From a virus, in the IMG/VR virus record IMGVR_UViG_3300042691_019546, positions 1 to 38,221 of that record: a stretch of DNA of 38,221 bases. One strand, 5' to 3'. How positions within the stretch are numbered: position 1 is the first letter of the stretch; each line of letters opens with the position of its first letter. Shown piece after piece: positions 18,393 through 37,675 of the stretch. The notes under the pieces were generated by a model that did no database searches, was not told where the DNA came from, and was given only the letters and a program-made list of their open reading frames with translations. The position numbers and the translations under genes are program-made.

Positions 18393-18584
18393 ATGCGCAT
18401 GCGAGGCGAATACCAGAACAACTTCGTGTACCTGTTCAACGATGTTGTCTCGTATGACAGCAAGTTCTGGATTGCGAATCGTGTCATTACGATCAATAGT
18501 CCTCCGCCATTTGTTGGGTGGGATCGATATCCCAATCCAGATGCGGATCGGTCGGTAAATCAGAATCCAACACCCACGGAGTAA
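18393..18584 (+). CDS. Small virion protein with a carbohydrate-binding-like module
   Basis: The 63-residue product has YQNNFVYLFNDVVSYDSKFW, then IANRVITINSPPP and F-V-G-W-D. The spacing GEY...DVV.Y....W.A....P...W resembles short carbohydrate-binding modules (CBM5/12-like) used in phage fibres. It starts at the ATG at 18393, or at 18399, with no clear ribosome site, so coupling to the adaptor gene is likely. It may be a fibre accessory or small tail protein. Confidence 0.55.
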   Translation: MRMRGEYQNNFVYLFNDVVSYDSKFWIANRVITINSPPPFVGWDRYPNPDADRSVNQNPTPTE

Positions 18585-18587
18585 ACC

Positions 18588-19106
18588 ATGCCCTACTACC
18601 AACAGAATGTGCTTGCCCAGTTGAAGACGATGGTTGAAGACATCAAACTGGCATCGACTGCAAATGTGAACACGGCTACATCTACTGTTACCATTACGGC
18701 ATCCACCACGAACCCAGTTCAGTCTGGTCGTACCAATTCACACTGGATTGGTAGCGAAGGAATGTGCTACATGAAGATGTCGCCGTTCTTTGCAACTGGC
18801 GCCACGACTCCAAGCCTGCGAGTCATCGGATGGAACAGGAATGCCGAAAGCGGTCTTTGGATTCCAGTTACGCTTTGCGATCTGTCGATTACGACGAACT
18901 CGACCGACACCACGGTCAACGGCGCGAGCCTTCGTCAGGCGCGGACGATTACGAAGAATCAGGGCGATGCCAAGTTGTTCAACAGCGATGCAACGCTGAT
19001 CTCCGGAGCGGCTTTCTTGGTCGATACGCTTGGTTCGCAAATCATTGAAATCGCGTATCGAGGCGGTGGCGCTGGCGCAGCCAACACTTTCTACACGAGC
19101 ATCTAA
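18588..19106 (+). CDS. Hypothetical virion structural protein
   Basis: This 172-residue protein has a helical N-terminus (YYQQNVLAQLKTMVEDIKLA) and a long beta-rich Thr/Ser-rich part (SLRVIGWNRNAESGLWIPVT, LCDLSITTNSTDTTVNGASL). This layout, a short helix then beta strands, is seen in small tail or fibre-base proteins. The stop overlaps the start of the fibre gene (TAATG). Codon use here and downstream is visibly less GC-rich than in the terminase and capsid genes. Confidence 0.6.
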   Translation: MPYYQQNVLAQLKTMVEDIKLASTANVNTATSTVTITASTTNPVQSGRTNSHWIGSEGMCYMKMSPFFATGATTPSLRVIGWNRNAESGLWIPVTLCDLSITTNSTDTTVNGASLRQARTITKNQGDAKLFNSDATLISGAAFLVDTLGSQIIEIAYRGGGAGAANTFYTSI

Positions 19107-20872: not shown

Positions 20873-21165
20873 GCGACTACTACCTACGCGCAAACACCGA
20901 GGCCGCGATGAAGAACGCTTTTCTCGCGGCGGGCATCACGGTGAAAGGCATCGACGGCGAGGTGGTGGATTTCGACGGAATCAGGCTCGACATCGGCTGG
21001 CTCGGCCCCATCTCGCGGCCTGACCCAAACGATCCCGAAGGCCAGCCAATCGTCGACAGTCTCTACCACGCGAACCTTCGGGTGAGCGGAGAACTGCCGC
21101 CGGAGGTGCTGGCGGAACTGCCGATTATCCCGACGCCGAATCATCCGTACCGGGTGTGGGCATGA
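20869..21165 (+). CDS. Small conserved phage protein beside the fibre gene
   Basis: The 98-residue protein begins MSDYYLRANTEAAMKNAFLA and continues GITVKGIDGEVVDFDGIRLDIG, with a C-terminus of Pro-rich strands (PEVLAELPIIPTPNHPYRVW). Short proteins of this kind are often found directly after fibre genes and before lysis genes, with unknown function; a chaperone role is possible. It overlaps both neighbours by ATGA. No ribosome site is visible, so coupling is likely. Confidence 0.65.
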   Translation: MSDYYLRANTEAAMKNAFLAAGITVKGIDGEVVDFDGIRLDIGWLGPISRPDPNDPEGQPIVDSLYHANLRVSGELPPEVLAELPIIPTPNHPYRVWA

Positions 21166-21368
21166 CTCTTGAATCAAACAACGCAACAGTCCATCTGTCC
21201 ATCAGGGACTGGATCGCGATCGCATCCGTTGCATTCACGATTATCGTAGCCGTTTTGGCTTCGTACCTGCACCACGATAGATTGCTCGTGCAGGTTGCAA
21301 CTCAGCAGCAAGCAATGTCCCAGCGCCTCGACCGTATCGAGGTCAACCTTGATAGGAGCAAACCATGA
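21162..21368 (+). CDS. Single-span membrane protein, holin or spanin-like candidate
   Basis: The product has 68 residues: a polar N-terminus (TLESNNATVHLSIRD), one transmembrane segment (WIAIASVAFTIIVAVLASYL) and a charged, helical C-terminus (HHDRLLVQVATQQQAMSQRLDR). One membrane helix plus a coiled-coil periplasmic domain fits an inner-membrane spanin or a class III holin. The neighbouring genes also look like lysis genes, but no endolysin is seen. The start overlaps the previous stop (ATGA). Confidence 0.6.
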   Translation: MTLESNNATVHLSIRDWIAIASVAFTIIVAVLASYLHHDRLLVQVATQQQAMSQRLDRIEVNLDRSKP

Positions 21369-21580
21369 CGAATGCACTCTTTGGCGGCAGTTGGAAGACC
21401 ACGGGCGCTGGAATCGGCGCGATCCTGATCGCTGTTGGCTCCGCAATTGCGGCCCTGACCGACAATGACCCGGCTACGACGATCGACATCGGCGCCCTGT
21501 CTGCGGCGCTGGTCGCCGGTCTTGGCCTGATCTTCGCCCGCGACAACGACAAGAGCAGCAAATCGCTCAAGGTGAAGTGA
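21365..21580 (+). CDS. Holin-like two-span membrane protein
   Basis: The 71-residue protein begins MTNALFGGSWKTTGAGIGAI. Two hydrophobic segments (AGIGAILIAVGSAIAAL and IGALSAALVAGLGLIFA) are separated by a polar loop TDNDPATTID. The C-terminus is charged (RDNDKSSKSLKVK). This size and layout fit small holins, and similar proteins occur in many phages. The start overlaps the previous stop (ATGA). The role in lysis is inferred. Confidence 0.65.
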   Translation: MTNALFGGSWKTTGAGIGAILIAVGSAIAALTDNDPATTIDIGALSAALVAGLGLIFARDNDKSSKSLKVK

Positions 21581-21894
21581 TGCCATGCTTCAGTCTGTCA
21601 TCCAAGCGATCCTGTCCGTGTTCGCGGGCATCGCAGAGCGCCTCTTGCGAGAAGGCAAGAAAGCGAAGGACGCTGACAGCGACCATCGCCTTCTTCGCCG
21701 CGCTGGTGGCCGGATTAGAGACTGGATGCACAAGGGCGGTTCTGGTGCCGGAAAGCAGTCCGGTCAGGATCGGACCTGAAGTGAGGTGCCGTATCTACCT
21801 GTTGGAGAACGGTGAGTGGGTGATCAGTGACAACGAGGTTCTGCTTCCAGAGGGCTGGTACTGCGTTCCGCCCTCCTATGTCGAGGACGAATAA
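21577..21894 (+). CDS. Lipoprotein (o-spanin-like) in an overlapping frame
   Basis: The credible part starts near residue 30 with RRTLTATIAFFAALVAGLET, then GC, a signal sequence with a lipobox-like Cys, followed by TRAVLVPESSPVRIGPEVRC and LPEGWYCVPPSYVEDE. This pattern is common for small phage lipoproteins beside holin-like genes. In the first 25 residues (CFSLSSKRSCPCSRASQSAS) the sequence looks like a shadow of the other frame. The ATG at 21577 gives an unusually long n-region; only CTG-type starts lie closer to the signal. Start is therefore uncertain; the stop at 21894 overlaps the fibre start (ATAATG). A spanin role is inferred. Confidence 0.55.
   Translation: MMPCFSLSSKRSCPCSRASQSASCEKARKRRTLTATIAFFAALVAGLETGCTRAVLVPESSPVRIGPEVRCRIYLLENGEWVISDNEVLLPEGWYCVPPSYVEDE
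21585..21779 (+). CDS. Small membrane-associated protein overlapping the lipoprotein gene
   Basis: The 64-residue product opens with a hydrophobic/amphipathic helix (MLQSVIQAILSVFAGIAERLL), then a basic region KKAKDADSDHRLLRRAGGRIRDWMHKG. The layout of a short hydrophobic helix followed by basic helices resembles small phage proteins located before lipoproteins. The frame is 0 and the lipoprotein frame is +1, so both are read from the same DNA. Its start lies five bases after the stop of the holin-like gene. It is probably the inner partner of a membrane pair. Confidence 0.5.
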   Translation: MLQSVIQAILSVFAGIAERLLREGKKAKDADSDHRLLRRAGGRIRDWMHKGGSGAGKQSGQDRT

Positions 21895-22991
21895 TGGCTA
21901 CGCGCATTCAGGTACGGAGAGGCTCAACTAGCGATTGGTCAACCGCCAATCCAATTCTCGCTGCTGGTGAAATTGGATTTGATACAACGACCGCCAATAT
22001 CAAGGTTGGTGATGGATCTACTGCATGGAATGCGCTTCCGTATCAATTGCCATATGCAACTGGGGCGCGAGCCAGCAGCCTCTCTGCAACGCTGTCTGTT
22101 GACAACGACAACGATCGTGTTGGAATCGGAACTACCACTCCATCTGAAAAGTTGGATGTTGTCGGAAACACAGAACTGAACGGCACTCTTTCAGTTTCTG
22201 GAAATACAACGCTTTCCGGAGATCTTGCCGTCGATGGCGGCGATATCACGACATCTGCTGGAACTTTGAACATTGCCGGAACGATTACTGGAGCGCAGAC
22301 CGTCAACATCGCGACAGGCGTTACCACGACAGGGAACACCAAAACGGTCAATATCGCTACCGGCGGAGACACCGGATCTACTACGAATGTCAACATCGGA
22401 AGTGCAAGCGGAGGAACTCTTGCCGTTCTGAAGAACGCAACAGTTGCCGGAACGCTTTCTGTTGCCGAAACGCTTTCTGTTACAGGAGTAATTTCTGGAC
22501 CCGGAACTATTCCAATCGGTGGAATCATCATGTGGAGTGGGGCGACTATTCCAACCGGATGGGCGCTTTGCGACGGAGCAAGTGGTAGACCAGACTTGCG
22601 AAACAAGTTTGTGTTCGGTGGACACACATATGGCACTACTGGAACGATGCCAGCGCCTGCTTGGTACGAAACGCTAACTGGAGGAAGTAATCCGGTTGGC
22701 GGAGGAAACAAGGATGCAATCGTTCCGACACACACCCACACCGTTACTGAAACGGCACACCGACACAACTTTGTCTATGACGATAATGTCGCAGACGCCA
22801 ATCTTGCACCATATGATGTCATCAGGACTCTTACAAACTTGGGTGGAGGAGCAGAAGGCGGAGGAACAACACTTCTTTATCAAACAAGTGCAGTTACTAC
22901 TGGAGTTACTGTCAATGCCGCCGGTGTGTCGGCAACCAACGGTCGAATGCCTCCATATGTCGTGATCGCATTCATTATCCGAATTGCCTGA
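21894..22991 (+). CDS. Tail fibre with tropism-determinant N-domain and tail-collar tip
   Basis: The 365-residue fibre starts with MATRIQVRRGSTSDWSTANP and AAGEIGFDTTTANIKVGDGS, the typical N-terminal domain of major tropism determinants. It continues through VGIGTTTPSEKLDVVGN, a trimer-forming shaft of repeats (LNGTLSVSGNTTLSG, TGNTKTVNIATGGDTGSTTN, VAGTLSVAETLSVTG), and ends with a T4 gp12-like collar domain (IPIGGIIMWSGATIPTGWAL, then CDG..GRPDLRNKFVFGG, THTHTVTETAHRH). The histidine cluster suggests metal-stabilised tip folding as in gp12. It overlaps the genes on both sides. Confidence 0.85.
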   Translation: MATRIQVRRGSTSDWSTANPILAAGEIGFDTTTANIKVGDGSTAWNALPYQLPYATGARASSLSATLSVDNDNDRVGIGTTTPSEKLDVVGNTELNGTLSVSGNTTLSGDLAVDGGDITTSAGTLNIAGTITGAQTVNIATGVTTTGNTKTVNIATGGDTGSTTNVNIGSASGGTLAVLKNATVAGTLSVAETLSVTGVISGPGTIPIGGIIMWSGATIPTGWALCDGASGRPDLRNKFVFGGHTYGTTGTMPAPAWYETLTGGSNPVGGGNKDAIVPTHTHTVTETAHRHNFVYDDNVADANLAPYDVIRTLTNLGGGAEGGGTTLLYQTSAVTTGVTVNAAGVSATNGRMPPYVVIAFIIRIA

Positions 22992-25348
22992 TGCCATACC
23001 TGCCCGGAAAACTTCCGTTTCGCGGATGGATTACCGACAGCCCATACAGCGCGGTTCCAGATGGATTTTCGGCATCAATGTTGAATGTGATGCCAAATGA
23101 CACATTCCGGCGTCGAGTTCGTCTTGGAACCAGACCTGCGTCTAACAGGGCGTATTCGTTTCCGTCAACGCAAAACATTCAGTGCATGTTGAGGACTATT
23201 TCGTTCAACAATGCAACGACTCCACCGACGCGGCGCGATCGAATTATTATTGTCGCTGGCGGAAAGTTCTATTACATGGATCAGGGTGGAGTTGCGCCTG
23301 TCCAGATCACGCATTTCGATTCCAACACCAGTTACACAAGCGCAATTCTTAGTTCTACTGTCTCGCGAATTGGCGGTGTGCAGCGTGGAAAGTACGCATA
23401 TTTCTGTGATGGATCAGGCACAAACGGATATGTGAAGGTTGATCTTCAGTCCAGCACTCTTCAGATCACATATTGGCATCACGGAAGTCATGGACCTGAG
23501 GACCATGTAAAGGCTGTTGTTGGAGCAAATACCTACACAGCCAATCTTATTTCGACATTTGGCGCTCGCATTGTCCTGTCCGGCGTAAAGACGCTGGAAA
23601 ATGTTTGGTACATGTCCAACATCCAAGATCCGGATGATTGGAATCCAAGCGGATCAGATGATGACGCTCAAGCCGGAACCACTGGAACAATCGGTCCAGT
23701 TGGTGATGAGATTGTTGCGATGGCCCCATTCGGAACATCTGGATTCCTGATGGCTGGCAAGCGAAGCGTTGCCTACTTGACCTCTGATCCTGCATATGAC
23801 CCAACCGGCGCGCGAATCGCAACATTGTCTAAGTCGATTGGTGTTGTTGGTCCAAAGGCGCTCTGCGAGGGTCCGGAGAAAAGCCTGTACCTGCTTGGTC
23901 AAGACGGCTTGTATAGGATCAGGCCCAACGATTTCAACCTTGATCGCGGATCTTTGATCTCGCTGAACAAGTTGGATTCGTTTTTCAGCGGACTGAAATA
24001 CGATCTGATCGATCCTGTTTTGCATTACGATGTGGAGCGTCGTGGCGTATGGATTTTCCTTACGCGAACTGACGCTCCGCAGAACAGCACACACCTGTTT
24101 TATAGCGAGCAGGTTGACGGGTTCTTTCCAATTCGTTTGTATGACCCGCTGTTCTATGGAGCGAGTTTTGCCTGTCAGGCAGCAGCCTATGACGGCAGAA
24201 ATCAGGTCATGCTATGCGCATACAAGAACACCATCTCCATGTTCGATCAAAGATTTGTGTCTGGATGCGATGGCTTTCCTGCATCCGGATACACATCCGC
24301 AACAACTCCGTCTGAGTCAAGCAGGCCGAGCCAGTTGATCTCCAGCACCCTGAACATCGGCCCTATCCAGCCGTTGCAACCAGAGTTGGTCTTGGCAAAA
24401 GAACTTCAGGTCGAACTTGCGAGCGACGAATACATTGTCCCAAACGAACTGAAGTCTGGTGGAACAAGCATTGCCAGCCGTCCGCGCGCAAGACTTCTTG
24501 GCGCCGATACGCCTCAAGAATCAATCGCAGAAGAAATCAACTCGATTACTGTCAACGAGGGTCTTTCTGTTACATACGATTGTGGTGGTCCAGTAAATTC
24601 CGAGACTCCCATCAGCGGTGGAACCGCATCCAGCGCAAGTCCTTTGTATGCAGATGGTGGATATGCGCCAAACACATTTGGAACATACATCGCGCAGGAT
24701 TCGCTTCAATCTCCGAACAACCGAAAGTATTACAGCGCGGATGGATTGCTTGTTGTTCAAAGACAGGCGTTTGAAACAATATCTCCGAGTTTGATTTACC
24801 AAGGCAACTGGTATCAAATCAAGACTTCTGGAGATACGCCGTGGACATCTCTTGGCGCACCTAATGGCACGGTCGGAACAGTTTTCAAGGCAACCATAAC
24901 TGCTGAGGAGGCTGGAATTGAAGGAACCGGATTTGCGTATGTTGTTCGATGGGTGATCAAGTACGCCACGAACTCTACGGTCAACTCAACATCAGCGTCC
25001 GAAGTTGTTCTGTATGGGCAACAACACTCTTCGCTAACGCCAGTGTCAGAAGATATAGACAAAGGTACATACCTGTGGCTGACTGCATTGTCAGGAGGTC
25101 CAGAAGGCACATTTGATTCTTCGAAGACGGCGTCTATTACCGCCGCTTTCTTTGTTGGCGCGGAAGCGAATGTGTTTGGATACCTGCGAGAAGGCATCAA
25201 CAATCGAATGCGGTGCAGGCTTCGATATGGCGCTATGTATGTTGAAATTTCATCTACGGGATGGCCGTGGGCGATTGAGCGCGTTGCCATCGACGCAGAA
25301 CCGATTAGCCGCCGCCGCACCATTGTTGATGTGAGCGCAAACGAGTAA
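22991..25348 (+). CDS. Tail nozzle / beta-propeller tail protein
   Basis: The 785-residue protein starts MPYLPGKLPFRGWITDSPYS in TGATG overlap with the fibre. The first ~450 residues contain beta-propeller-like repeats with RDRIIIVAGGKFYYMDQGG, GARIVLSG.KTLENVWYMSNIQDPDDWNP, GDEIVAMAPFGTSGFLMAGK and SLYLLGQDGLYRIRPN. These resemble tail tubular/nozzle and P22 gp10-like proteins. The last ~300 residues carry IYQGNWYQIKTSGDTPWTSL, GAPNGTVGTVFKAT, a block frequent in phage tail fibre proteins. It probably forms the tail tip below the adaptor. No enzymatic motif is seen. Confidence 0.7.
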   Translation: MPYLPGKLPFRGWITDSPYSAVPDGFSASMLNVMPNDTFRRRVRLGTRPASNRAYSFPSTQNIQCMLRTISFNNATTPPTRRDRIIIVAGGKFYYMDQGGVAPVQITHFDSNTSYTSAILSSTVSRIGGVQRGKYAYFCDGSGTNGYVKVDLQSSTLQITYWHHGSHGPEDHVKAVVGANTYTANLISTFGARIVLSGVKTLENVWYMSNIQDPDDWNPSGSDDDAQAGTTGTIGPVGDEIVAMAPFGTSGFLMAGKRSVAYLTSDPAYDPTGARIATLSKSIGVVGPKALCEGPEKSLYLLGQDGLYRIRPNDFNLDRGSLISLNKLDSFFSGLKYDLIDPVLHYDVERRGVWIFLTRTDAPQNSTHLFYSEQVDGFFPIRLYDPLFYGASFACQAAAYDGRNQVMLCAYKNTISMFDQRFVSGCDGFPASGYTSATTPSESSRPSQLISSTLNIGPIQPLQPELVLAKELQVELASDEYIVPNELKSGGTSIASRPRARLLGADTPQESIAEEINSITVNEGLSVTYDCGGPVNSETPISGGTASSASPLYADGGYAPNTFGTYIAQDSLQSPNNRKYYSADGLLVVQRQAFETISPSLIYQGNWYQIKTSGDTPWTSLGAPNGTVGTVFKATITAEEAGIEGTGFAYVVRWVIKYATNSTVNSTSASEVVLYGQQHSSLTPVSEDIDKGTYLWLTALSGGPEGTFDSSKTASITAAFFVGAEANVFGYLREGINNRMRCRLRYGAMYVEISSTGWPWAIERVAIDAEPISRRRTIVDVSANE

Positions 25349-25369: not shown

Positions 25370-26413
25370 ATGGAACCGTTTACAGCAATGGCGATTGGCG
25401 GAGCCGTCTTGGGAGGCGGAAGCATCCTTGGTGGAATCTTTGGCAAGAAAGCCGCAGACGCCCAGAAGCGCGCCCTCGATCAGATGAAAGCGTATGCGCA
25501 GCAGGAGTACAAGGCTCTTGGCGCATACAGCCTGAAGCAGAGTGACGAAATCCTCAACAAGTTTCTTCAAGAGCGCGAGGCCAATATCGGCCAGTATGGC
25601 TCTCAATACGAGTCTCTGATTTCTGACTTTGACCGCCGATATGCAGAGGCGCAGACCGCTTATTCGGGCGGCATGCGAGACATGGCCTCTGTGTTTCAGG
25701 GTGGAATGATGGATCTTGAAAGGCAGTATCGGACTGGCATGGAAACTGCCTATGCGACCGCTGCCACTGGTCGCGAAAACACCATTGCCGCTATTCGCCG
25801 CGCCACTGCATCAAGCCTTGGGCGAGCAACGCAAATGCAGCAATTGACTGGACTTGCTGGCACTACATTCGGCCAGTCGGCTCTTGCCGGATTGGAACAG
25901 GAAGGTGCTATGCGAGAAGGAGTTGTGCAAGAGCAGTACGCGAGTCAATTGTCCGGCATTCAGCAAGCAATGACAGGAAACCTCGCAGCGATGGGGCAGC
26001 GTCGTGTTGGTGGCATGACCGACATCGCTCGTGAGCAGATTGCTGGAGAGCGCCAGATGGCTCTTGGCAGAATGTCCACCATTGGCGGACTCCAAGAGAA
26101 CATGATTCAGCAGATGCTTTCGCAGCGCCAGCAGACAACCGGCGTTGGAACTTCCATGCGAGAATCCTCGCTTGGTCGATACATTGGAATGGAGCAGGCT
26201 CGCATTGGGTCTATCTTGGGCATCCAGCAGCAGCAGGCTGCGCAGGCAGGCGCTGGATGGTCTGCGGCTGCTGGCGCTATGGGTGGCATCGCGAGCGGAC
26301 TTGGAGGCAGTCTGATGATGGGCGGCCTGCTTGGTAGTTTTGGAGGCGGCGGAGCGGCTGGATCAACTGGTATGGATCCATACGGCGGATTCGGCGCGCG
26401 AGCCGGTATGTGA
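25370..26413 (+). CDS. Internal virion (DNA ejection) protein candidate
   Basis: The 347-residue protein begins with a glycine-rich hydrophobic segment (FTAMAIGGAVLGGGSILGGI), followed by long amphipathic helices rich in Ala, Gln and Met (QMKAYAQQEYKALGAYSLKQ). It ends in GGIASGLGGSLMMGGLLGSF, a second glycine zipper. Glycine zippers at both ends around a helical core are a hallmark of ejection proteins, which leave the capsid and build a channel across the host envelope. The ATG lies after GAGGG. No T7 gp14 homology is claimed. Confidence 0.7.
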   Translation: MEPFTAMAIGGAVLGGGSILGGIFGKKAADAQKRALDQMKAYAQQEYKALGAYSLKQSDEILNKFLQEREANIGQYGSQYESLISDFDRRYAEAQTAYSGGMRDMASVFQGGMMDLERQYRTGMETAYATAATGRENTIAAIRRATASSLGRATQMQQLTGLAGTTFGQSALAGLEQEGAMREGVVQEQYASQLSGIQQAMTGNLAAMGQRRVGGMTDIAREQIAGERQMALGRMSTIGGLQENMIQQMLSQRQQTTGVGTSMRESSLGRYIGMEQARIGSILGIQQQQAAQAGAGWSAAAGAMGGIASGLGGSLMMGGLLGSFGGGGAAGSTGMDPYGGFGARAGM

Positions 26414-26429
26414 TTCAAAGGACATCGCT

Positions 26430-27179
26430 ATGGCAAACAACAACGAACAATCGACATTCTCTCAACTGCTTGGCCGATCGCTGGTTATGTCGATCCCCGG
26501 AATGCTTTCCGGTGTCGGTCAGGGAATTGCAGCGTCTGATCCTCGACAGCCTTATCGTGGACTTGGTGTTGGCCTTGCGTCTGGCATCCAGCCGATGCAG
26601 CGTTTCGCAGGATCTGTCATCGATCAACAGATGGCAAATGAGCAATATGAAGGCGACACTGCTCGTGCGATCAAGCGCAAGAAGGCATTCGACATTGCAG
26701 ATCAGGAAGGCGCAGAGCAGAAATTCGATACCGAAACCGAACGGATGCTTCGCCGTCGCAAGGCCATCAAGGAAGCCGAATCTGGTGAAATTGCTGGCGA
26801 ATACGATGCGGAAACAGAGCGCATGCTGAAGCGCCGCAAGGCCATCAAGGAAGCCGAAGAGGCTGGTGCGGATCAGCAGTATGACACCGAAACGGAGCGA
26901 ATGCTTCGTCGTCGCAAGAGGGTCGGTGAAGTTGCTCGCGAGGAGCAGGCTGCTGATATCACGGCGAATCGTGACTTGAGTCGGCAGCAGGCGGCTGAAG
27001 ACGCTGCAAGGTTTCGCAAGATGCGAGACATGACAGCGGGAATCAACATTGGCATGCGTGGCCTTGACGATCAGTCGAAGATGTTTGCTGCGCAGTTTGC
27101 GGCATCGCAGATTCTTCCTAGCCCAGCCATGCGAATGTCCGGCATTCAGGGCGCTCGCCAAATCTTTGGAGGACAGTGA
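26430..27179 (+). CDS. Internal virion protein with four 26-residue repeats
   Basis: The 249-residue protein starts at the ATG at 26430, seven bases after AAAGGA; a longer reading through the upstream gap is rejected. Residues 15-62 are hydrophobic and Gly-rich (RSLVMSIPGMLSGVGQGIAA). From residue 73, four tandem units of exactly 26 residues carry the core DTETERMLRRRKAIKEAE in units 2-4, while unit 1 is diverged. They should form a charged coiled coil. The C-terminus is helical. Its stop overlaps the next gene. Position between two ejection-like proteins suggests the same function. Confidence 0.65.
   Translation: MANNNEQSTFSQLLGRSLVMSIPGMLSGVGQGIAASDPRQPYRGLGVGLASGIQPMQRFAGSVIDQQMANEQYEGDTARAIKRKKAFDIADQEGAEQKFDTETERMLRRRKAIKEAESGEIAGEYDAETERMLKRRKAIKEAEEAGADQQYDTETERMLRRRKRVGEVAREEQAADITANRDLSRQQAAEDAARFRKMRDMTAGINIGMRGLDDQSKMFAAQFAASQILPSPAMRMSGIQGARQIFGGQ
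26646..26957 (+). repeat. Four tandem 78-bp coding repeats
   Basis: Four units of 78 bp encode residues 73-98, 99-124, 125-150 and 151-176 of the 26430 protein. Equivalent positions are Tyr73, Phe99, Tyr125 and Tyr151. Units 2 and 3 share CGCAAGGCCATCAAGGAAGC at DNA level, which suggests recent duplication. Confidence 0.85.
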
Positions 27180-28525
27180 TGCTAAACAACTCCAATCAGG
27201 ATGAAATCAATACCCAGCCAGTGCAGGCTGGTGCGAATATTCCATCCGAAATCGGTCGAATGATCGATCAGGCGGATAGGGATGACACCATGTACCTTGG
27301 CAATCCGCAGATTGCGGGCCAGCGTTCATTTCGACGGGCTGTTGCTGGTGTTGAAAACGGGGATTATCAAGGTCTAGAACAACTGGACTTTGGGTCAATT
27401 GACGGCACTCCTGCTGTGTCCTTTACTGACGAGGATGGTCAGCGTCAGGTATTTCGCCTGACTATGCCGCAGTGGACCGCTGCTTTGGAAACACGATCGC
27501 GCGCCCGCAAGCAACTTGAGCAGGAGTACAAGACGGATGCGCTGAAGAAGGCATTGCGTCCTCAGTACGGAATGCTTCTGAAGAATGTCCCCGGAGCAGA
27601 AGATCCTGTCGCTCAGGCCGGATGGCGTGAACTGTTTGAACTTGATCCTGCAACCGCATACGAACTCGCTGGCGACTCTCTGAAGAAGGACACCAAGATG
27701 GGCGTCCTGTATGGACGCGAGCAGCCTGAGTCGTTCGTAAAGGCGCAGAATGCCATGCTGGATCAGCAGTACAAGCAGAAGATGGATCAGTTCCGGGTTC
27801 TGGACAGCGGCACGGTGGACATCGCGACCAAGGGCGGTCTTGCTGCCGCGCAGTCGATGGTTCGCCCTCCGGAGGCTAGCCACCTGCCGCTGGAAATGAC
27901 CCCTTCGGATTGGCTGTCGGTCAACAACGCCACCGTCCTTCCGATGGTCAACCTGATCCAGCAGGCATCGATGCCTCTTGGTCTTCCCGGTATGGACAAA
28001 CCGATCGTGGCACCGGCACCGGACATGGATGGCAACTACCGCGAGTCCACGGTTCGCAATTGGCTTGGTCAGTTCAACATGTCGGTGGTTCAGCCTCTGG
28101 GTTGGATGCCGTATGATTTCGACAATCCTGTTCACCAGCAGCAGATCATCGAGATGCTGAACGCATACAACAGCAACCGCACTGGCGCCATCACCCGTGG
28201 TGGCGTTCAGCAGACTGTTCAGCCCCGCCCGCAAGCGTCTCGCGACGCTGGTCTTATGGCGCAGGAAGAACCGCAGCAGTCCGCAAACAAGGCCATGTCA
28301 TCCGCCGAACAGTTCTTCCAGCGGTACGAGGACTTCGCGTTTGAGCGACCGGGCGTTTATGGAGAAAAGCCGAGCGATCCGAACGCAGCCACCCAGACTT
28401 CCGTGCAGGCTCTTCTGGATGCACACGAGGAGAATGAGCGCCTGAAGGCTCAGGGCAAGGCTCCGAACAAGTATCCTCCGCCGCAGGAGTTGGCAGAGTT
28501 CTACAAGGCCGTGACTGGAGGGTAA
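27179..28525 (+). CDS. Internal virion protein candidate
   Basis: The 448-residue protein starts at the ATG at 27179, six bases after GGAGG; a GTG one codon earlier is less likely. It is mostly helical and polar, with the blocks ALETRSRARKQLEQEYKTDA, LRPQYGMLLKNVPGAEDPVA, PSDWLSVNNATVLPMVNLIQ and a Gln/Pro-rich linker (QQTVQPRPQASRD). The C-terminus reads NPNAATQTSVQALLDAHEEN-like, ending in EFYKAVTGG. No family is recognised. By position before the giant protein and by composition it is probably another ejected virion protein. Confidence 0.6.
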   Translation: MLNNSNQDEINTQPVQAGANIPSEIGRMIDQADRDDTMYLGNPQIAGQRSFRRAVAGVENGDYQGLEQLDFGSIDGTPAVSFTDEDGQRQVFRLTMPQWTAALETRSRARKQLEQEYKTDALKKALRPQYGMLLKNVPGAEDPVAQAGWRELFELDPATAYELAGDSLKKDTKMGVLYGREQPESFVKAQNAMLDQQYKQKMDQFRVLDSGTVDIATKGGLAAAQSMVRPPEASHLPLEMTPSDWLSVNNATVLPMVNLIQQASMPLGLPGMDKPIVAPAPDMDGNYRESTVRNWLGQFNMSVVQPLGWMPYDFDNPVHQQQIIEMLNAYNSNRTGAITRGGVQQTVQPRPQASRDAGLMAQEEPQQSANKAMSSAEQFFQRYEDFAFERPGVYGEKPSDPNAATQTSVQALLDAHEENERLKAQGKAPNKYPPPQELAEFYKAVTGG

Positions 28526-28528
28526 AGC

Positions 28529-31500
28529 ATGGACCCGTCTGCGTTTCAGAACGCCATCAACGAGCAGAGGCGCAAGCGGTCACTTACTCCATTTCAGTCA
28601 GCGATTGAAGACATCAGGCTGAAGCGCCGAGAGGCGCAGTTGCCCGGTGGAGAAGAGGAAACTGCCTCCGCTACAGCCAAGCAATTGGGTGCCGGTGCTG
28701 GCGCCCTTGCCGTTGAACTGGCGATGTCTCCGTTTCAGGGATTGAGCGGACCGGTCGTTACGGAACTCGCAATGACCAAGACGATCAAGCCGGAGCGGCT
28801 TGGTCAGTTGGCCGAACTCAGCGCACAGCAGACGGCAGACCGATCTGCCGCCGGAATCGTTTCCCAGTTGGCTTACGGTGCAGTTACTTCTCTTGCGAGC
28901 GACATTGCGTCAACCGCCCGTGGCGTTTCGATGGTCACTGCGCCGTACACGCCGGTCGAGGCATTTGCCCGTGGCGCGCAGCAGACCGCGCAGTCTCGCC
29001 TTGACACTGTTCCGACCAACATCTCAAACGCGCTGACTCAGGGCGTGACGAGCATGGCGCTCATGGCTGGCACATCTGCCGCCGGTGTTCCTGCCGCTGC
29101 CCCAGCCGCCATGTTTGCCCGCAGCCTTGGCGCACAAGCGCAGGCATACGAGCAGGAATTCCTGAGCGGAACGATGGGCCAGAACCTGTCTCAGGCAGAC
29201 AGGTACATGGCTGCTGGTCTTGGCGCTGCGGTTGAGGCTGGCATCGAATACGGCGGTGGTCGAATGATCATGGGCGCGGCCAAGAAGTTGGTTGGCCGAT
29301 TTGCTGCTGGTCAGATCAAGAATCCGGTGTATTCGTTTGTGCGGACGGCTGCTGGTGGTGCCGCAGTTGAGGGTACTGAAGAGGCGCTTACCACCGGCAT
29401 TACCGAACAGGGAGTGACGCGACTCACCAAGCAGGAAACACCGACAGTCGGCAGCACACTTGGTCAGGCAACTGTTGACTTCATGTACGGCGCAATCGGT
29501 GGTGTCGGCGGAACGGTAACTGCGATGCCGTTTGCAGCCGCCGAACGCAAGGCTGTCGAGCGCAAGGTCGATGAGGTTCTGCGAAAGTCGCAGACCGAAT
29601 TTGCTAGCCCGGAGTTCTTGGAGAGGGCTACCGGCGGTCGAGTTCGCTCGATGGTGTCGATGACTCCAGATGAGCGTATTGCTGAAGTTGAGCAGCAGCG
29701 AGAGGCCGCTTTGTCTGCCCGTGGTACTTATGCGACAGCCGCGACAATGCACCAGAATCTTCTGGAGCAGCGCAAGAATCAGTCCGATGCGTTGAAGAAG
29801 GCGCAGCGTCGAAAGGATGCTGCTGGCATCAAGACCGCAGAAGATGCGATTGCGGACCTGACATCCAAGATCGACACATCCGAGCAGGGGCTGATCCTTC
29901 TTGCCGCAGACGCCAAGTCTGCCGAGGCTGGGTACTTTGCGTCCGCCGCTTTCCTTGCCCGCAATTCAGATCCTGTCCAGTTGTCTGTCGATGATGTCCT
30001 TCGCCAGAACAACGCCGCGACTGCTTCGGCATCAACCGATGCAGATCGGGCTGTCGAAAGCGAACTGAAGAACTTGGGTTACGAGGTCCAGTTCTACACG
30101 GGACCGAACAAGGATCAGGTCGGCTTCTACGATCCGGCTGCTCCAAACACGATCTTTGTCCAATCCGGACAGACGAACGCGGCGGAGGCGATTGGCATTG
30201 GTTACGAGGAAGGCGTTCACGGCATCCAGTATTCGGACGCTGCCTTGTGGCAGGCCATCCGCCAGATGCACAGCCCTCGCGCTGCGATCGACGCCGCCGT
30301 TCAGTATTTCACCCAGCGCACGAATCCAGAGGACATTGCCGCTCGTTCGGCAATCGATGCTCTCAGCAACCCACAGCGCGGAGCAGTTGATGCTCGATCC
30401 GCTGTTGCCAATCGATTCGGAAGCACCCTCGTCACTGCCGAGGGCGTAGCCAACGACATCCGCGATGGCGTCCAAACCCTGTTCCGTACCGGTCAGGCTC
30501 CGGGTCTTCTTGGTCGAGTCATTACGCGAATGGGCCTTCGTGGCCGTCAGGCTGCTACCGCCCTTCGCGTTCGCAACCTGATGATGGAGCGCGCATCGAC
30601 TCGCCAGCGCGGAGGAATCTCCGAGTTCGGTAGGCAGATTCAGGAAGCCAAGGGCGGCATTCAGGCGATGTCGGCATTTGAGCAGGAGGTTGCTCGCCGT
30701 GCCGCTGCACCGGCCCCTGCACCTGCACCGGCGCCAGTTTCGGCTCCCGCCGCCGCGCCATCGCCCGCCGCGCCATCGCCCGCCGCGCCAGCGACTGCAC
30801 CCGCTCCGGGCATGTTGTTCGCTCGCGCGCGGCGAGAGAGTGATATCGGTCACAAGCGCGAAAAGACCACTGGACGATATGTTGGAGCGCCAGATTGGGT
30901 TGGTGGCGATCCTGCCAAGTTGCGTGTCCTTCGCAACAAACTGCGTCAATTGGCAAAGGAAGGCGAAGTAGGCAAGTACTGGTACGAGAAGTCCAGCCGC
31001 GCGATTCTTGATGCGGTTGGTGGAGACATTGTCGAGGCAGAGAAACTCGTTGCGCTGATTGCGATCTATTCGCCCAACGCCACCGTCGCAGCAAACATGA
31101 CGATGGCGATGACTGCGTATTACCAGTTCAAGGCTGGGTTGCCGATCGAGGCTGGTCTTGGCGCATCGAATCGCAAGGCCGAAGATCTGCTGAAGAACAA
31201 CAAGCGTTGGGATGGAATCAAGACCAACTCGTTCTATCAGAACCTGATGGTTGATATCGATCCGTCCTATCTGGACACGAATGTCGCCACGATGGATATG
31301 TGGATGGCGCTCGCGTTCGATTACGGAGACAAGGTTCTCGATCAGGGGCCGAAGTATCGATTCTCAGAGCGCGAGATTCAGCGTCTTGCTGTGGAACTTG
31401 GATGGAAGCCGCATCAGGTTCAGGCCGCTATTTGGACTGCAATGAAGGGTCGAATCGATCCGATCCGCGATGCTTTGAAGCAAGAAGAAGTTCGCGTTGG

Positions 31501-34500
31501 TATTGGCGAGTTCGTTGAAGAAGTCGATAAGAAGACCGGCAAGAACAAGATCGTCTACAAGGTCAAGAAAGATCGCGAGCGAGATCACTTCAAGTTGGCG
31601 CACGAGATGGGAATGAGGGGCAAGGCGAATACCGCAGCCCTTGCGGAAAGCAAGTACGACTTTGGAGACGCGCTGAACGATCGCATGGTTCAGTTGTCTT
31701 GGGAAGCGACTCCGAGTACAGCGGCGAACGCGCCTCTTCCGGGCATCCACAATGCCCCGCTTGCACAGAAGATTGAATACCTGACCGACATTTCAGATGT
31801 CCTATCTCCCAACGGTCGAGACATCATCGCAGACATGGTTGGTTTGCCGCAAGGCCAGACCATCATTGGAATCAGTGCGTGGAAGGCTGCGATCGGTGCA
31901 GGCGCACAAACCTTCTACGCGGTTCCGATGGAAGGCGCCGGTGGCAAGCGACAGATCAAGGATGTAGCCAATGACATGCTGCGACTCGCGTCTGCGATTC
32001 GCGGATATGTATTGACTCAGGACATGGTGGTCTATCACACGCCGGTATTTGATTCGTCAGTCAAGTCTCAGAACGGTGTGCAACTACTGACCCAGCGATC
32101 ATTGACGCCTGATGAAATGCAGACGCTGTACAACGCGCTGAATGCCAAGTTCGGTACTTGGGATTTGGCTCCCGGCTATCTGCCACAAGGCGCTCGCATT
32201 CTGAACTTCGTCGAGGGGCTGGATAACAAGAAGTTCCACGACGGCGTGAGAGAAATCCTCACGGCCTTGCCGGATGATTTCGGTGGAGGTAACATAGAGT
32301 TCGGCAAGTACCGATCCGCAGGTGATGCGGTATTCAGCGACTGGAAGGACAACCCCAATGGCGAAATTTACCGAGAGATCATTGCCGCCCGATCACCCGA
32401 TCTTCTCCGAAGGGCCGACGATCTTCGCGCCAGTGTCGAAGCCGTCAACCGCCGCTTCGCAGACAAGTATGGGTGGGACAAGCCAACCGCAGCCGCAGCA
32501 GCCGCAGCCCCAGCAGCCAGCGAACAAGTAAGCGCCGAGCAAGAGCAGAGCAATCGGGCGCTCGCTGCTCGCCAGCGCGCAGTTGCCAACGCTCCAGCCA
32601 GTGCGATTCAGACTCAGCCGCTGCCAGCGGCGTTCTACTCAGCACTGAACCGCGCTATCGATGCGGCTCCAGACAAGTCCATGAAGCCTGACTCGTGGCG
32701 CCAGTTGATCACGAGCATGGTCAACAAGGGACAGGTCAAGTCTGAGGAGGTGTTCTGGTCTGGTCTTCAGCAGTTCATCGACCTGCTTGATCCCAATGTT
32801 GCCGTGAGCAAGGCACAGATTCGCGAGTCGTTGGGTGCCGGTGGTGTGTCGATCCGGCTCGTGCAACTGGATGATCCGCTCGACGATGTGTTCCAGAACA
32901 ATCGCTCAGCCTACCTTCCTCCGGGATATCAAATCACATTTGTTGAGGAGGACGAGGGATACTTTGAAGTTCGCGACGCAGCAGGTCAAGTTGCCTCTTC
33001 CGACGAAAACGATGCTGTTGCGGTTCAAACAGCATGGGAAAGTTATAACGCCGATGAACGCGCCGCAGGACGGACGCCGGTAAAGCCAACGGTGGGGCTT
33101 GCGTTGTATGGGCCGAGTCGTTTCCCCACCCAGACGCTTCGCGGTGGCAAGGACTATCGCGAGATGGTGATGCTGTTCGATAGAAGGCCAACGCCAGAAG
33201 TGACTGATGAGGATGTGAAGAACAGCGGATTGAGCGTTTTGTCTGTTGAATATGTGGGCAACACCACACGCTTTACAATTGTTCGCAATCTTCCATCGTC
33301 GAAACAGGGGGTAGTTAGAACTGAGACCGTCGATTTTGCAACTGTGGGAGGCCAGTGGACTAAGGACTACATCCTCAAGCAATATCTCACAAATCAACGG
33401 CGATCCGCTGCTGGCGCTCCATTCGCGGAATCGCACCACGAGGGAGTCGCGGAAGTTGCTGGATCAGAAGTGCTTCTGCACTACCGCGTGACTACCCGCG
33501 TAGTTGATGGCAAGCGTTACCTGTTCATCGAGGAGTTGCAGTCTGACTACGGCCAGAAGGGTCGAGCGCGTGGCTTCAAGCAACCGGGTGAAACTGGCGC
33601 AACGCAAGAACAGATTCAACAAGCGCGCGCTCGCGCGAAGAATGTTTTGCGCGACTACATTCTGAACCCCGATGAATATGAAGAAACAAAGAATGTTCTA
33701 GTACGCTTCTGGAAAGAGAGGGACAGCAATGATGTCTTCCTCAAGAAACTGGAGAAGCAATATGCGCGCACACGCGAAGGTTTGAATCCAGTTGAAAACC
33801 GCCAGTTGATTGCATCATGGGCGGATGCTTATAGGTCGTTGAAGGATGTGATGACCGCAGCAAATGTTGATCGAATCGGAGTTTCTCGCGGACCGATGGT
33901 GACATCCACTGATGCGTGGGTGACACTGGGTCTGAAGCAGATTCTGATGCAGGCCGTCAACGAGGGCTACGACGGAGTCGCATTCATCAACGGACGGCAG
34001 GAGGCAAAGCGAAACCAGCAGATCTACAAAGTGCCGTCGATCACATACCGAGATCTTGGCGATGGTCTGTATGACGCAATTACCGCAGACGCCGATGTCA
34101 ACATTGGAACGATCGAAGACATCAAGGATGAGTTTGGATCAACGGTTGCCGACATGATCAAGCGCGGCGAGGGTGTTCGCGCCGAAGGATCTGACCTGAC
34201 AACGATCGACACATCCGAGATGACCTTTGGAACTGAGGCGATGGAAGGTTTCTATGAAGGCATCGTGCCGAAGAACCTGAAGAAGTTGATATCCAAACTT
34301 GGCGGCCCCGAACTTGGCACGATTACGCTGTCTGAATTGGATAACCGTCCGAGTATTCGGGAAAGTGAAGATGTCGATGGAGCAACCCTTTACACGGTCG
34401 TTCGACCCAGCGACACCGGATTCGGCAATTCTCTGACTACCTACAGGACATTTGAGGCCGCACAGCGTCGCCTTGATGAAATCCAGAAGACCTTCGTTGG

Positions 34501-37500
34501 ACAACCAAGTCCGAAGCAAATTGCCTTGGAGATCACCGACGCGCTGGAAACCAATGTCCGAAAGGGCTTGGCTCTGTTTGCTCGCAGCCGCGAACAGCGT
34601 CAGGAATCGCTGGCATTCGCGATGGGTCGCCGCAGCGGTCAGGTCGCCGGAATGATGAAGGGCCGCGAGCAGGGTCTTCGCGAGGGCAAGGAGGAGCAGC
34701 GGCGCAAGGATGTCGTTCGTCGCCGCGAGATGCGCGCCAAGTTTGCCGAGCGAGTCGCTGGATTTGAGCAGCGCATCGAGAATGCTGCGCAGACGAACAC
34801 CGATCTTCGCCAGCGATTGAAGGATATGCGGGCTGCTGGAGTGGAGCAACGAGCCGACCTCATGGAGCGCGCCCGCGTTCGTGTGCTGAAGGCGTGGTTT
34901 GCAGGCCAGCAGAAGGGTTCCAACGCTGGGTACGAGCAGGCGAAGAAAGACATGGTTGCGATGCGGAAGGACGCATTGGCGATCATCAAGTTGCTTCCGC
35001 CGAGCATGCGCGGCGCATACGGCAACGCTCTTGCCACGATGAAGACTGTTGCTGGAATCGACCGTATCTCTCGCCGCGTGGTTCAGGATCTCGTGACCGC
35101 AGACGCTATCGACATGGTGAACGCGATCAATCGGATGGATCGCCGCGCTCGTAAGGTCGGGCTTCGTACCGACACTCGCGATGAGATCATCGACATGCTG
35201 AACACGGCTCGTGGAATGCTTGCGTCTGGACGGAACAGGCTGCTTCCATTCACCAACACGAGCGATCTGTCTGGGCGAATCAATGCAGCAAATGATCTGC
35301 TGGCTCAGGCTGTTGCCATGTTTGAGGACGAGCGGGCCGAGTACCGCATGGAGCGCGATGCTCGCGCTGCTGAATTTGAGCAGGATGCATCCGACCTGTC
35401 GGCCACGCTGGCTGGCAAGAAGGGTCTTCCACCAGAGCGTCTCGCATCGCAGGCTCCGCGCCGTGGCGTGTTCGGGCAGTTGTTCAGCAACAACGCGAAC
35501 ATGGACATGTACACGATCATGGAAAGGCTGGAGGGTTCAGCGAGTGGTGTGCTGAACAAACTCTGGAGCGGCCTGATCGCGGGCAAGAATGCGATGCTGA
35601 AGGATCGCCGCGATCTTGATACCCGAATTGATCAGGCTCTTCGCCGTGCTGGCTATGACGGATACGACGGCTATGCCACTCGTGCAGCCGGTCTGTACGG
35701 CGATGCTACTGCGGAGACTGTCGAGGTCAAGATTGGCGGAGAGATGCGCCGGATCACGGTGGATCAGATGATGCATCTTGCGGCGTTGGACAACGATACC
35801 GTCGAACTATTGATGGATGAGAATGATCCAGAGACGCGATCCAGCCCGATCGTGTTTGCGACATATCGCTACGAGCAGCCCATCTATCTGACCAAGCAGG
35901 AGCATGCGGCTCTCGTTGCTGGTTTGACCCCGCGACAGACTGCGCTGATCAGCGAACTCAAGGCGATCCTTGAGGGTTCTGTGCAGCCCCGCGTGTTTGA
36001 GATTCACTTCCAGCAGCAGGGCAAACAGCCGCCGCGTGTCGAGGGCTACTTCCCGCGATCCAGACTCAGCGATGAGGTCGGCGGCGAAGTGGTCGATCCA
36101 AACATGCAGCCGGGTCAGGTGCTGAACACCATGCTGACTAACGCTGGGTTCCTTCAGAAGCGAGTCCGTAGTTCTGCTCCGCTGGTGATCGGCGGCATGA
36201 TGCGAACCTTCGACGGCCACATTGACGAGGCTCTGCGACTGATTCACCTCGCGATTCCCCTTCGTCATGCGATGACTGTGCTTCGCCGTCGCGGCGTTCG
36301 ATCGAACATCGAGCGGATCATGGGTCGGGGCAGCAATGACGCCGTCCGAATGCTGGTTCTCAACGGTGTCGGACTGAGCGGAAAGCCGCAGGGTGATCTG
36401 GTCGAGATGGTGAACAGCAACATCAGCGGCGCCCTGCTGCTGATCAACCCGAAGACATGGTTGCGCCAGTTGGGCGGAGCATTCCGTCTAGTCACTGAGT
36501 TCGATGCCGACGCATGGGCCACAGGTCTGGCGGCATCTCTTACGCTGACACCATCGCAGCGCGCGCAGCAGATCCAGCAGATCGAAAGCACGAACGGATA
36601 CTTCTACGAGCGTCACCGCCGATCGCAGGTTGGACTGTTTGCCAATGTGCTTGGCGATCCCCGCACGGGACGCGAGCAGTTCGCGAACGGCATGCGAGCC
36701 GTTGGTCGCGCTCTTGCTACCGCTGGAGAGGACGCCGCTGCCGGTCGATGGCTACAGGCCGCAAACGATGTGCGTCAGGGAGTCACTGGCGTTGGACGCA
36801 TCATGCGAGCGGTTGACTTTGCTCTGCGAGGCGTGGACCGACAGATCATGCTGGTCGCATACAACGCAGCACTCGCGCAGTTGCGCCAGACCAATCCTTC
36901 GATGCCGAACATTGAGGATGCTGCGGCTGCGTTGGCAGAGCGGTCATTCCGCAGGACGCAGAATGTCAGCGATCCAATGGATGACACGATGTACTCTGCC
37001 CAGCAGAAGTTCAGCCGTGGAATCGGTCGCCTGATGTTCCCGTTCAGCAGCGATCCGCTGAAGGCATACAACCAGATGCGCCGCGCCTATGCGAGTGGAG
37101 ACGCGACACGAATTGCCAAGGCTACGGCTGGAGTTGGAACGAACATTCTGGCTGGCGCGGCTGTGAACCCCTTGTGGGCTGCGGCGGGCCTCGCGATCGC
37201 GTCTGCGTTCAACTCTGGCGACGATGACGAGGTGATCGCAGAGATGCTCCGCGAGAAGGAAACCAACGCGGCGGCTCGACGAATCGCTTCAGATGTCATG
37301 GCGACTGCCTTTGGCAACGCTGGAATGCTCGCTAGTGGAATCATCGAGGCAGCGGTTGGCGATCCTCGTATGGCCGAAGATGTCGGAGAACCTCTGGCGA
37401 TCCGCGCCCTTGGCGACCTTGCCACGGCCACTGCCACCGGCCAGTTCGGTCGCGCTGGCGGCATCGCTGCTCAGATGGTTGGTGTGCCGGTGGTTGCGCC

Positions 37501-37675
37501 ACTCAGCGCCATCACATCGACGGCTGCTGCTGTGCGGCCAAGCGACGAGAAACTGCTGACTGAGTACCGCAAGCGTCGGAAGGCTGGAACGCTGACGCCC
37601 CAGCAGGCTCGTCGCATGCGTGTTCTTGAGGCTTCAGAGCGACTGCGCAAGTTGCGCGAACAATCTACCCAGTGA
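28529..37675 (+). CDS. Giant polyvalent internal virion protein (3048 aa)
   Basis: The ATG lies seven bases after GGAGG. Modules in order: a Gly/Ala-rich hydrophobic region (about 50-340); a coiled coil (378-470); a metallopeptidase-like segment with EEGVH at 560-564; an Ala/Pro linker (725-760); and LFARAR (763-768). Then comes a helical DUF7178-like domain (788-1315, WYEKSSRAILDAVGGD, AIYSPNATVAAN), a second linker (1318-1340), and a polyvalent-protein domain of the PLxRFG group (1368-2015). That domain has FIEELQSDYGQKGRARGF at 1666, LKQILMQAVNEGYDG near 1800 and EAMEGFYEG at 1903. LFARSR follows at 2016-2021, then long coiled coils to about 2330, and a C-terminal part with hydrophobic segments and FPFSSDPLKAYNQMRR near 2836. 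Such proteins are thought to travel in the virion and act in the new host. Individual activities are unproven. Confidence 0.8.
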   Translation: MDPSAFQNAINEQRRKRSLTPFQSAIEDIRLKRREAQLPGGEEETASATAKQLGAGAGALAVELAMSPFQGLSGPVVTELAMTKTIKPERLGQLAELSAQQTADRSAAGIVSQLAYGAVTSLASDIASTARGVSMVTAPYTPVEAFARGAQQTAQSRLDTVPTNISNALTQGVTSMALMAGTSAAGVPAAAPAAMFARSLGAQAQAYEQEFLSGTMGQNLSQADRYMAAGLGAAVEAGIEYGGGRMIMGAAKKLVGRFAAGQIKNPVYSFVRTAAGGAAVEGTEEALTTGITEQGVTRLTKQETPTVGSTLGQATVDFMYGAIGGVGGTVTAMPFAAAERKAVERKVDEVLRKSQTEFASPEFLERATGGRVRSMVSMTPDERIAEVEQQREAALSARGTYATAATMHQNLLEQRKNQSDALKKAQRRKDAAGIKTAEDAIADLTSKIDTSEQGLILLAADAKSAEAGYFASAAFLARNSDPVQLSVDDVLRQNNAATASASTDADRAVESELKNLGYEVQFYTGPNKDQVGFYDPAAPNTIFVQSGQTNAAEAIGIGYEEGVHGIQYSDAALWQAIRQMHSPRAAIDAAVQYFTQRTNPEDIAARSAIDALSNPQRGAVDARSAVANRFGSTLVTAEGVANDIRDGVQTLFRTGQAPGLLGRVITRMGLRGRQAATALRVRNLMMERASTRQRGGISEFGRQIQEAKGGIQAMSAFEQEVARRAAAPAPAPAPAPVSAPAAAPSPAAPSPAAPATAPAPGMLFARARRESDIGHKREKTTGRYVGAPDWVGGDPAKLRVLRNKLRQLAKEGEVGKYWYEKSSRAILDAVGGDIVEAEKLVALIAIYSPNATVAANMTMAMTAYYQFKAGLPIEAGLGASNRKAEDLLKNNKRWDGIKTNSFYQNLMVDIDPSYLDTNVATMDMWMALAFDYGDKVLDQGPKYRFSEREIQRLAVELGWKPHQVQAAIWTAMKGRIDPIRDALKQEEVRVGIGEFVEEVDKKTGKNKIVYKVKKDRERDHFKLAHEMGMRGKANTAALAESKYDFGDALNDRMVQLSWEATPSTAANAPLPGIHNAPLAQKIEYLTDISDVLSPNGRDIIADMVGLPQGQTIIGISAWKAAIGAGAQTFYAVPMEGAGGKRQIKDVANDMLRLASAIRGYVLTQDMVVYHTPVFDSSVKSQNGVQLLTQRSLTPDEMQTLYNALNAKFGTWDLAPGYLPQGARILNFVEGLDNKKFHDGVREILTALPDDFGGGNIEFGKYRSAGDAVFSDWKDNPNGEIYREIIAARSPDLLRRADDLRASVEAVNRRFADKYGWDKPTAAAAAAAPAASEQVSAEQEQSNRALAARQRAVANAPASAIQTQPLPAAFYSALNRAIDAAPDKSMKPDSWRQLITSMVNKGQVKSEEVFWSGLQQFIDLLDPNVAVSKAQIRESLGAGGVSIRLVQLDDPLDDVFQNNRSAYLPPGYQITFVEEDEGYFEVRDAAGQVASSDENDAVAVQTAWESYNADERAAGRTPVKPTVGLALYGPSRFPTQTLRGGKDYREMVMLFDRRPTPEVTDEDVKNSGLSVLSVEYVGNTTRFTIVRNLPSSKQGVVRTETVDFATVGGQWTKDYILKQYLTNQRRSAAGAPFAESHHEGVAEVAGSEVLLHYRVTTRVVDGKRYLFIEELQSDYGQKGRARGFKQPGETGATQEQIQQARARAKNVLRDYILNPDEYEETKNVLVRFWKERDSNDVFLKKLEKQYARTREGLNPVENRQLIASWADAYRSLKDVMTAANVDRIGVSRGPMVTSTDAWVTLGLKQILMQAVNEGYDGVAFINGRQEAKRNQQIYKVPSITYRDLGDGLYDAITADADVNIGTIEDIKDEFGSTVADMIKRGEGVRAEGSDLTTIDTSEMTFGTEAMEGFYEGIVPKNLKKLISKLGGPELGTITLSELDNRPSIRESEDVDGATLYTVVRPSDTGFGNSLTTYRTFEAAQRRLDEIQKTFVGQPSPKQIALEITDALETNVRKGLALFARSREQRQESLAFAMGRRSGQVAGMMKGREQGLREGKEEQRRKDVVRRREMRAKFAERVAGFEQRIENAAQTNTDLRQRLKDMRAAGVEQRADLMERARVRVLKAWFAGQQKGSNAGYEQAKKDMVAMRKDALAIIKLLPPSMRGAYGNALATMKTVAGIDRISRRVVQDLVTADAIDMVNAINRMDRRARKVGLRTDTRDEIIDMLNTARGMLASGRNRLLPFTNTSDLSGRINAANDLLAQAVAMFEDERAEYRMERDARAAEFEQDASDLSATLAGKKGLPPERLASQAPRRGVFGQLFSNNANMDMYTIMERLEGSASGVLNKLWSGLIAGKNAMLKDRRDLDTRIDQALRRAGYDGYDGYATRAAGLYGDATAETVEVKIGGEMRRITVDQMMHLAALDNDTVELLMDENDPETRSSPIVFATYRYEQPIYLTKQEHAALVAGLTPRQTALISELKAILEGSVQPRVFEIHFQQQGKQPPRVEGYFPRSRLSDEVGGEVVDPNMQPGQVLNTMLTNAGFLQKRVRSSAPLVIGGMMRTFDGHIDEALRLIHLAIPLRHAMTVLRRRGVRSNIERIMGRGSNDAVRMLVLNGVGLSGKPQGDLVEMVNSNISGALLLINPKTWLRQLGGAFRLVTEFDADAWATGLAASLTLTPSQRAQQIQQIESTNGYFYERHRRSQVGLFANVLGDPRTGREQFANGMRAVGRALATAGEDAAAGRWLQAANDVRQGVTGVGRIMRAVDFALRGVDRQIMLVAYNAALAQLRQTNPSMPNIEDAAAALAERSFRRTQNVSDPMDDTMYSAQQKFSRGIGRLMFPFSSDPLKAYNQMRRAYASGDATRIAKATAGVGTNILAGAAVNPLWAAAGLAIASAFNSGDDDEVIAEMLREKETNAAARRIASDVMATAFGNAGMLASGIIEAAVGDPRMAEDVGEPLAIRALGDLATATATGQFGRAGGIAAQMVGVPVVAPLSAITSTAAAVRPSDEKLLTEYRKRRKAGTLTPQQARRMRVLEASERLRKLREQSTQ

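Follow-up and report, generated by a model that had tools for sequence, protein, structure and literature searches.

The phage polyvalent proteins, described as a class by Iyer et al. in 2017 (PMC5512222), are very large multidomain products, typically encoded among the virion genes. That injected giant phage proteins are divided into functional pieces was proposed in that work, with the zincins embedded in polyvalent proteins as the processing enzymes (PMC5512222). P1 DdrB is processed before packaging (as cited in PMC5512222); N4 virion RNA polymerase, with an MPTase of its own, is packaged without being processed (PMC5512222), and this counts against a cleavage reading of the protein considered here.

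The protein in question, of 3048 residues, is encoded in the window, i.e. the whole stretch of DNA that was analysed, which is a complete IMG/VR virus record of 38,221 bases. Its architecture and position place it among the phage polyvalent proteins. Like the published class (PMC5512222), it is very large and multidomain, combining in one 3048-aa polypeptide several unrelated parts (a DUF7178 cassette, A; a second cassette, B; a zincin-like region; and a backbone), its relatives carry ART-PolyVal domains, and its gene lies with the late virion genes. The original prediction of a polyvalent protein agrees with the published class (PMC5512222), with the end of the virion cluster as the position of the gene and with the ART-PolyVal cassettes in the corresponding slot of relatives. 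Unlike the published polyvalent proteins (PMC5512222), the window protein has a backbone with two ends, internal exchangeable slots, and cassettes A and B of undescribed function. Together with a backbone-specific tag, the two-ended backbone and the exchangeable internal cassettes would seem to form a variant that we have not seen described.

The likeness to the antirestriction proteins DdrB/DarA of P1 is one of working only, as large virion-associated multidomain proteins processed before packaging in P1. N4 virion RNA polymerase is likewise a giant protein of a podophage in which a zincin-like domain is embedded, but no polymerase was detected in the window protein. The ejection proteins T7 gp15/gp16 and P22 gp7/gp16/gp20 share the genomic neighbourhood, and the backbone may play an ejection role; unlike them, the window protein is far larger, carries exchangeable cargo and shows no sequence match to them. 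In polymorphic toxins a constant delivery part is joined to swapped effector modules, with a motif at the junction; in the window protein, unlike these toxins, the variable part is internal, between constant ends, and no immunity gene was identified.

Gene and genome setting

The features of the late region are the following:

10038-25348, + strand: head and tail cluster, with terminase large subunit, portal/adaptor, major head protein, tail fibre and tail appendage (PHROG matches)
25370-28525, + strand: three genes directly upstream of the giant gene (347, about 251 and 449 aa), with no PHROG match
28529-37675, + strand: whole coding sequence of the giant gene, 3048 aa (ORF call and relatives)

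The giant gene had been predicted as a single 3048-residue reading frame, and so it stands: one intact ORF with an ATG start and one stop, beginning 4 bases past the stop of the upstream gene (27176-28525), with homologues in the same position. When the whole protein was used as query, 17 IMG/VR loci were found, at least 10 of which hold full-length or near-full-length homologues in the same position, with 41-74% identity in the best segment; the C-terminal part as query found 34 IMG/VR loci. Because of these 17 and 34 homologous loci, the gene is real and not a chance ORF. Moreover, the backbone codons of the window and of its relative L002 differ at 144 synonymous and 31 nonsynonymous sites, and the backbone is therefore under purifying selection.

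The record is described as podophage-like and is without a close cultured relative: terminase and portal have remote relatives only among sequenced phages, and the giant protein has no homologue among cultured or sequenced phages at 1e-5. No tRNAs were found in the 38,221-base window, and PADLOC gave no match. Further to the left, a strong DUF932 match (Pfam 9.3e-40) was obtained for a gene (6410-7522, -) in a block on the minus strand that lies between the left genes and the terminase; a repressor-like HTH_3 protein is encoded at 5691-6140 (-), and a sub-threshold RusA-like match (E 0.0038) lies at 2770-3216 (+).

The three genes directly upstream occupy the position of podophage ejection proteins, from which a putative ejection role is suggested. 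The giant gene itself is the last of the virion cluster, a place that is kept in the relatives, and phage polyvalent proteins are typically found among virion genes (PMC5512222). Both points argue against the possibility that the product is left out of the particle and made during infection as a late or a takeover protein, which we consider very unlikely. Packaging in the virion, followed by injection, is predicted from the gene position and the protein class.

Constant ends and exchangeable middle cassettes

The following parts can be distinguished along the giant gene:

28529-30733, + strand: N-terminal backbone, residues 1-735, with an Ala/Gly-rich helical region, a charged probable coiled coil and the zincin-like domain (identity to L002)
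29936-30700, + strand: zincin-like domain, residues 470-724, with ExxH...Q and an invariant Glu at alignment position 169 (alignment A3)
30206-30220, + strand: active-site motif EEGVH in place of HExxH, the first zinc ligand being Glu (alignment of relatives)
30854-32476, + strand: cassette A, residues 776-1316, DUF7178 module (Pfam, relatives)
30965-31453, + strand: DUF7178 (PF23802) match within cassette A, residues 813-975 (Pfam E 1.2e-11)
32624-34564, + strand: cassette B, residues 1366-2012, unannotated (alignments A4/A6)
34607-37672, + strand: C-terminal backbone, residues 2027-3048, with a basic helical start, a conserved body and two hydrophobic segments near the end (alignment A5, 34 loci)

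The protein consists of constant ends and exchangeable middle cassettes, and cassettes have been replaced within it. The clearest case is the comparison with the close relative L002, to which the window protein is 98.6% identical over residues 1-721. At the DNA level, most of the sequence as far as about codon 733 is 92-99% identical; identity then falls to about 40% across codons 751-1340, is patchy from 1340 to about codon 2010, and after about codon 2016 is again mostly 90-100% (lowest block, 81%). With flanks so nearly identical on either side, the middle must have been replaced recently. Across the relatives, the divergence of the N-terminal backbone is correlated with that of the C-terminal backbone (rho 0.84).

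The hydrophobic modules that had been predicted are found at residues 2872-2895 and 2976-3003 and in the Ala/Gly-rich region (residues 50-345), and a coiled coil at residues 345-480 is plausible from the composition (15% K+R, 15% D+E). A PLxRFG module, also predicted, found no support: the C-terminal GYFPRSRLSDE merely resembles the PLxRFG motif, and the NCBIfam model, searched without a positive control, matched neither the window nor the C-backbone relatives, L016 or L030. The C-terminal backbone of L030 has no homologues in cultured phages.

Concerning the predicted peptidase-like module, the zincin-like region exists, and an intact peptidase is not supported. Around residue 560 the relatives show HExxH...Q followed by an invariant downstream Glu (E169 in alignment A3); HExxH is present in about half of them, being intact in L005, L006, L008, L012 and L014, while the window, L002, L003 and other relatives have EEGVH or nearly so. 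Thus, the window copy, with EEGVH, is degenerate at the first zinc ligand and lacks the HExxH motif. Weak Pfam matches to Zn_peptidase_2 and DUF6782 (E 0.0063 and 0.0015) were obtained in relatives only, and the profile of the zincin alignment found nothing meaningful in the PDB, the best matches being designed TPR helices. The first ligand is His or Glu by clade, with the remaining motif invariant across the family, and this switching looks like repeated independent change. Furthermore, the variable regions of L006 and L012 hold, apart from the backbone zincin, a second zincin-like cassette with intact HExxH (FAHELMHAATS and FAHEMMHAATS), which in L006 has no Pfam match.

Cassette A contains the DUF7178 module expected from the first reading of the sequence, with a score of 45.3 bits against a curated cut-off of 27, and also matches PHROG 3842. 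It has spread horizontally: across different backbones it is 58-64% identical (typically about 62%), and in relatives whose backbones range from 29% to 63% identity its copies are 59-64% identical to that of the window; it is 59-63% identical in L010 and L016, giant proteins with unrelated backbones; and its distances are weakly correlated with those of the backbone (rho 0.38). The corresponding slot of L208, L215, L219 and L220 holds remote DUF7178-like modules (hhalign 88.8%), and for the slot of L002 a DUF7178-like module is only suggested (Pfam 0.018, sub-threshold; hhalign 3.4%). In a set of bacterial and archaeal genomes with one per species, the sole match of cassette A was L037, a contig of a Glaciecola MAG, where the giant protein that holds it is phage-like and has Q-type border tags of its own.

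Cassette B occurs widely in IMG/VR (80 loci kept), and in cultured phages it has two remote partial matches only. Its invariant residues (H286, R288, E303-E304, Q306-S307-D308 and W432, in module numbering) are of a kind typical of an enzyme, which makes it a candidate enzyme by its alignment. Modelling of single modules with AlphaFold, a check attached to the original prediction, could be carried out for both cassettes, and neither model matches a PDB fold. The model of cassette A, a fairly confident one (pLDDT 82, pTM 0.78), had no Foldseek match in the PDB below E 0.001 and resembles segments of numerous predicted proteins from uncultured phages, some of them named polyvalent; that of cassette B (pLDDT 78, pTM 0.67) had no PDB match, and its sequence profile gave nothing meaningful there. 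Two functional candidates for cassette A were rejected: an HhH-GPD glycosylase for DUF7178, from a K-T...D pattern (hhalign probability 0.1%, no Foldseek support), and a SAM-lyase-like C-terminal half (Foldseek E 0.57 and 1.0, too weak).

Other cassettes occur in the middle region of the relatives. ART-PolyVal domains (3e-13 to 5e-36) fill the corresponding variable slot in at least 7 of them; the window giant protein itself matches no polyvalent domain of Pfam. An unannotated cassette of about 280 aa, with no Pfam match, recurs in the variable regions of L012 (13907-14761; GPDPxIVAVAERYA ... AVHDAMGHSLEGAGFRARGEENAWQAH), L015, L030, L215, L220 and L230. In the giant protein of L002, the end of the replacement cassette (about 1250-1480) is GNAT-like by eye (GKSGYARALLAAAVQAGG...DCFDTVLPQYYAPHGF), with no Pfam GNAT match.

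The long conserved ends, the two hydrophobic segments near the C-terminus and the adjoining putative ejection genes would suit an ejection protein with a structural role alone, as a lineage-specific counterpart of T7 gp16 or P22 gp16, in which the middle is a tolerated insertion with no effector role. Against this stand the enzyme-like invariant residues of the middle domains, the ART-PolyVal enzymes in the corresponding slot of relatives and the modules common to unrelated giant proteins. Moreover, the profile of the C-terminal backbone (alignment A5) found no solved ejection protein and no meaningful match in the PDB. A purely structural role is, in our judgement, quite unlikely.

Border tags

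Each module border of the window protein carries a short repeated peptide:

30812-30832, + strand: border tag 1, M-L-F-A-R-A-R, residues 762-768, after an Ala/Pro linker (pattern match)
32558-32578, + strand: border tag 2, A-L-A-A-R-Q-R, residues 1344-1350 (pattern match)
34571-34591, + strand: border tag 3, A-L-F-A-R-S-R, residues 2015-2021 (pattern match)

The strict pattern x-[LSMV]-x-A-R-x-R has exactly 3 matches in the 3048 residues, one per module border, and none in the 18 other window proteins examined; the narrower form x-L-[FWYSA]-A-R-x-R likewise has exactly 3. The overall reading of the original prediction is partly supported; it missed the constant backbone, the exchangeable cassettes and this repeated tag.

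In a survey of relatives, module starts were set by conserved anchor sequences and [ILVMS][..]AR was sought within 40 residues upstream, the tag patterns having been defined after reading the sequences. The motif precedes 29 of the 31 modules in 18 proteins with the window-type backbone, against 2/31, 4/31 and 6/31 in control windows shifted by 60, 120 and 180 residues. Before the same anchors in other backbones it occurs in 4/40, and there an S-type tag (RYSL, FSLR) is present at 13/40 borders, against 3-4/40 in the control and 0/31 in the window-backbone family. For ART modules, the tag classes of the N- and C-flanks agree (10, 2, 0, 12; p 3e-5, a value that, as all tag p-values here, assumes independence, the proteins within a backbone family being related). 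The claim rests on anchored borders, since unsupervised scans alone do not support a general one: a within-protein repeat scan placed 14 of 86 proteins above shuffles, mostly helical noise, and border windows taken from BLAST edges gave a small tag effect, with a weaker one in the control windows too.

The same cassette can be found behind different tags. Cassette A is preceded by MLFARAR in the window, IRYSLPP in L016 and VLYQSGKR in L037, and the tag codons differ synonymously within one gene, so that the conserved feature is the tag peptide. Thus, the tag is a feature of the protein and goes with the backbone, not with the module, as expected for processing sites.

These two observations also weigh against the tags being recombination joints or an inherited linker, i.e. 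a by-product of cassettes recombining at short homologies, and a DNA recombination site as such is disfavoured by the synonymous variation. What speaks for such joints is that DNA identity between the window and L002 shifts near tags 1 and 3, returning above 80% at tag 3, and that the tag after cassette B is similar to the way in which the module ends in other proteins; this tag looks partly inherited with its module. As an account of the tags in general, a by-product of recombination is judged unlikely.

The backbone-specific border tag was not found described in the literature searched, mostly without subscription journals, and its novelty is not certain; in PMC5512222 no recurrent tag of this kind is mentioned, and the word "linker" occurs 0 times.

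Proposed delivery and release of the cargo

The best explanation, to which we give somewhat better than even chances, is that of a virion-borne polyvalent protein with exchanged effector cassettes and tags that are release sites. The conserved N- and C-terminal backbones would act in packaging, in leaving the capsid and in entering the cell, and the middle would consist of two enzyme-like cargo modules (A and B), exchanged between phages as cassettes. The lineage-specific border tags would mark the release points of the modules, which would most likely be freed by proteolysis, either in the virion or once entry has taken place, and would then act early on the host. Cleavage at the tags is inferred, as is an effector role early in infection, directed at the host or its defences. 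A polyprotein is the simplest reading, in which a delivery backbone would have its cargo freed at lineage-specific sites.

The protease that would cut the tags may not be the backbone zincin, since several relatives have also lost the first His of HExxH and yet keep their tags. Since the built-in peptidase of the window protein is degenerate, binding motifs remain a serious rival to cleavage sites. The tags would then serve for docking or unfolding, by binding a pocket of the backbone, portal or a chaperone, and would order the modules for passage through the tail, with the protein remaining uncut. The peptidase is often degenerate in the relatives too, and the tag type goes with the backbone lineage, as it would for a cognate binding site; on the other side, the two inter-cassette tags of the window lie in or beside low-complexity linkers, which suits cleavage too. 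Docking is given a low probability, and release by cleavage is kept as the preferred reading.

A broader form of the release model is put forward tentatively, at rather less than even chances: polyvalent proteins may be true polyproteins with backbone-specific cleavage signatures (ARxR in the window backbone; SL[KR]/FSR or xQ elsewhere), which cassettes must acquire from the recipient in order to be released, being exchanged like magazines in a fixed frame.

Cassettes A and B occur widely among uncultivated phages and have no match among solved folds. Tags that follow the backbone give exact predicted cut sites, here and in many other proteins, which can be tested by virion mass spectrometry. 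They would also provide a rule by which unannotated giant proteins of phages could be divided into their single effector domains.
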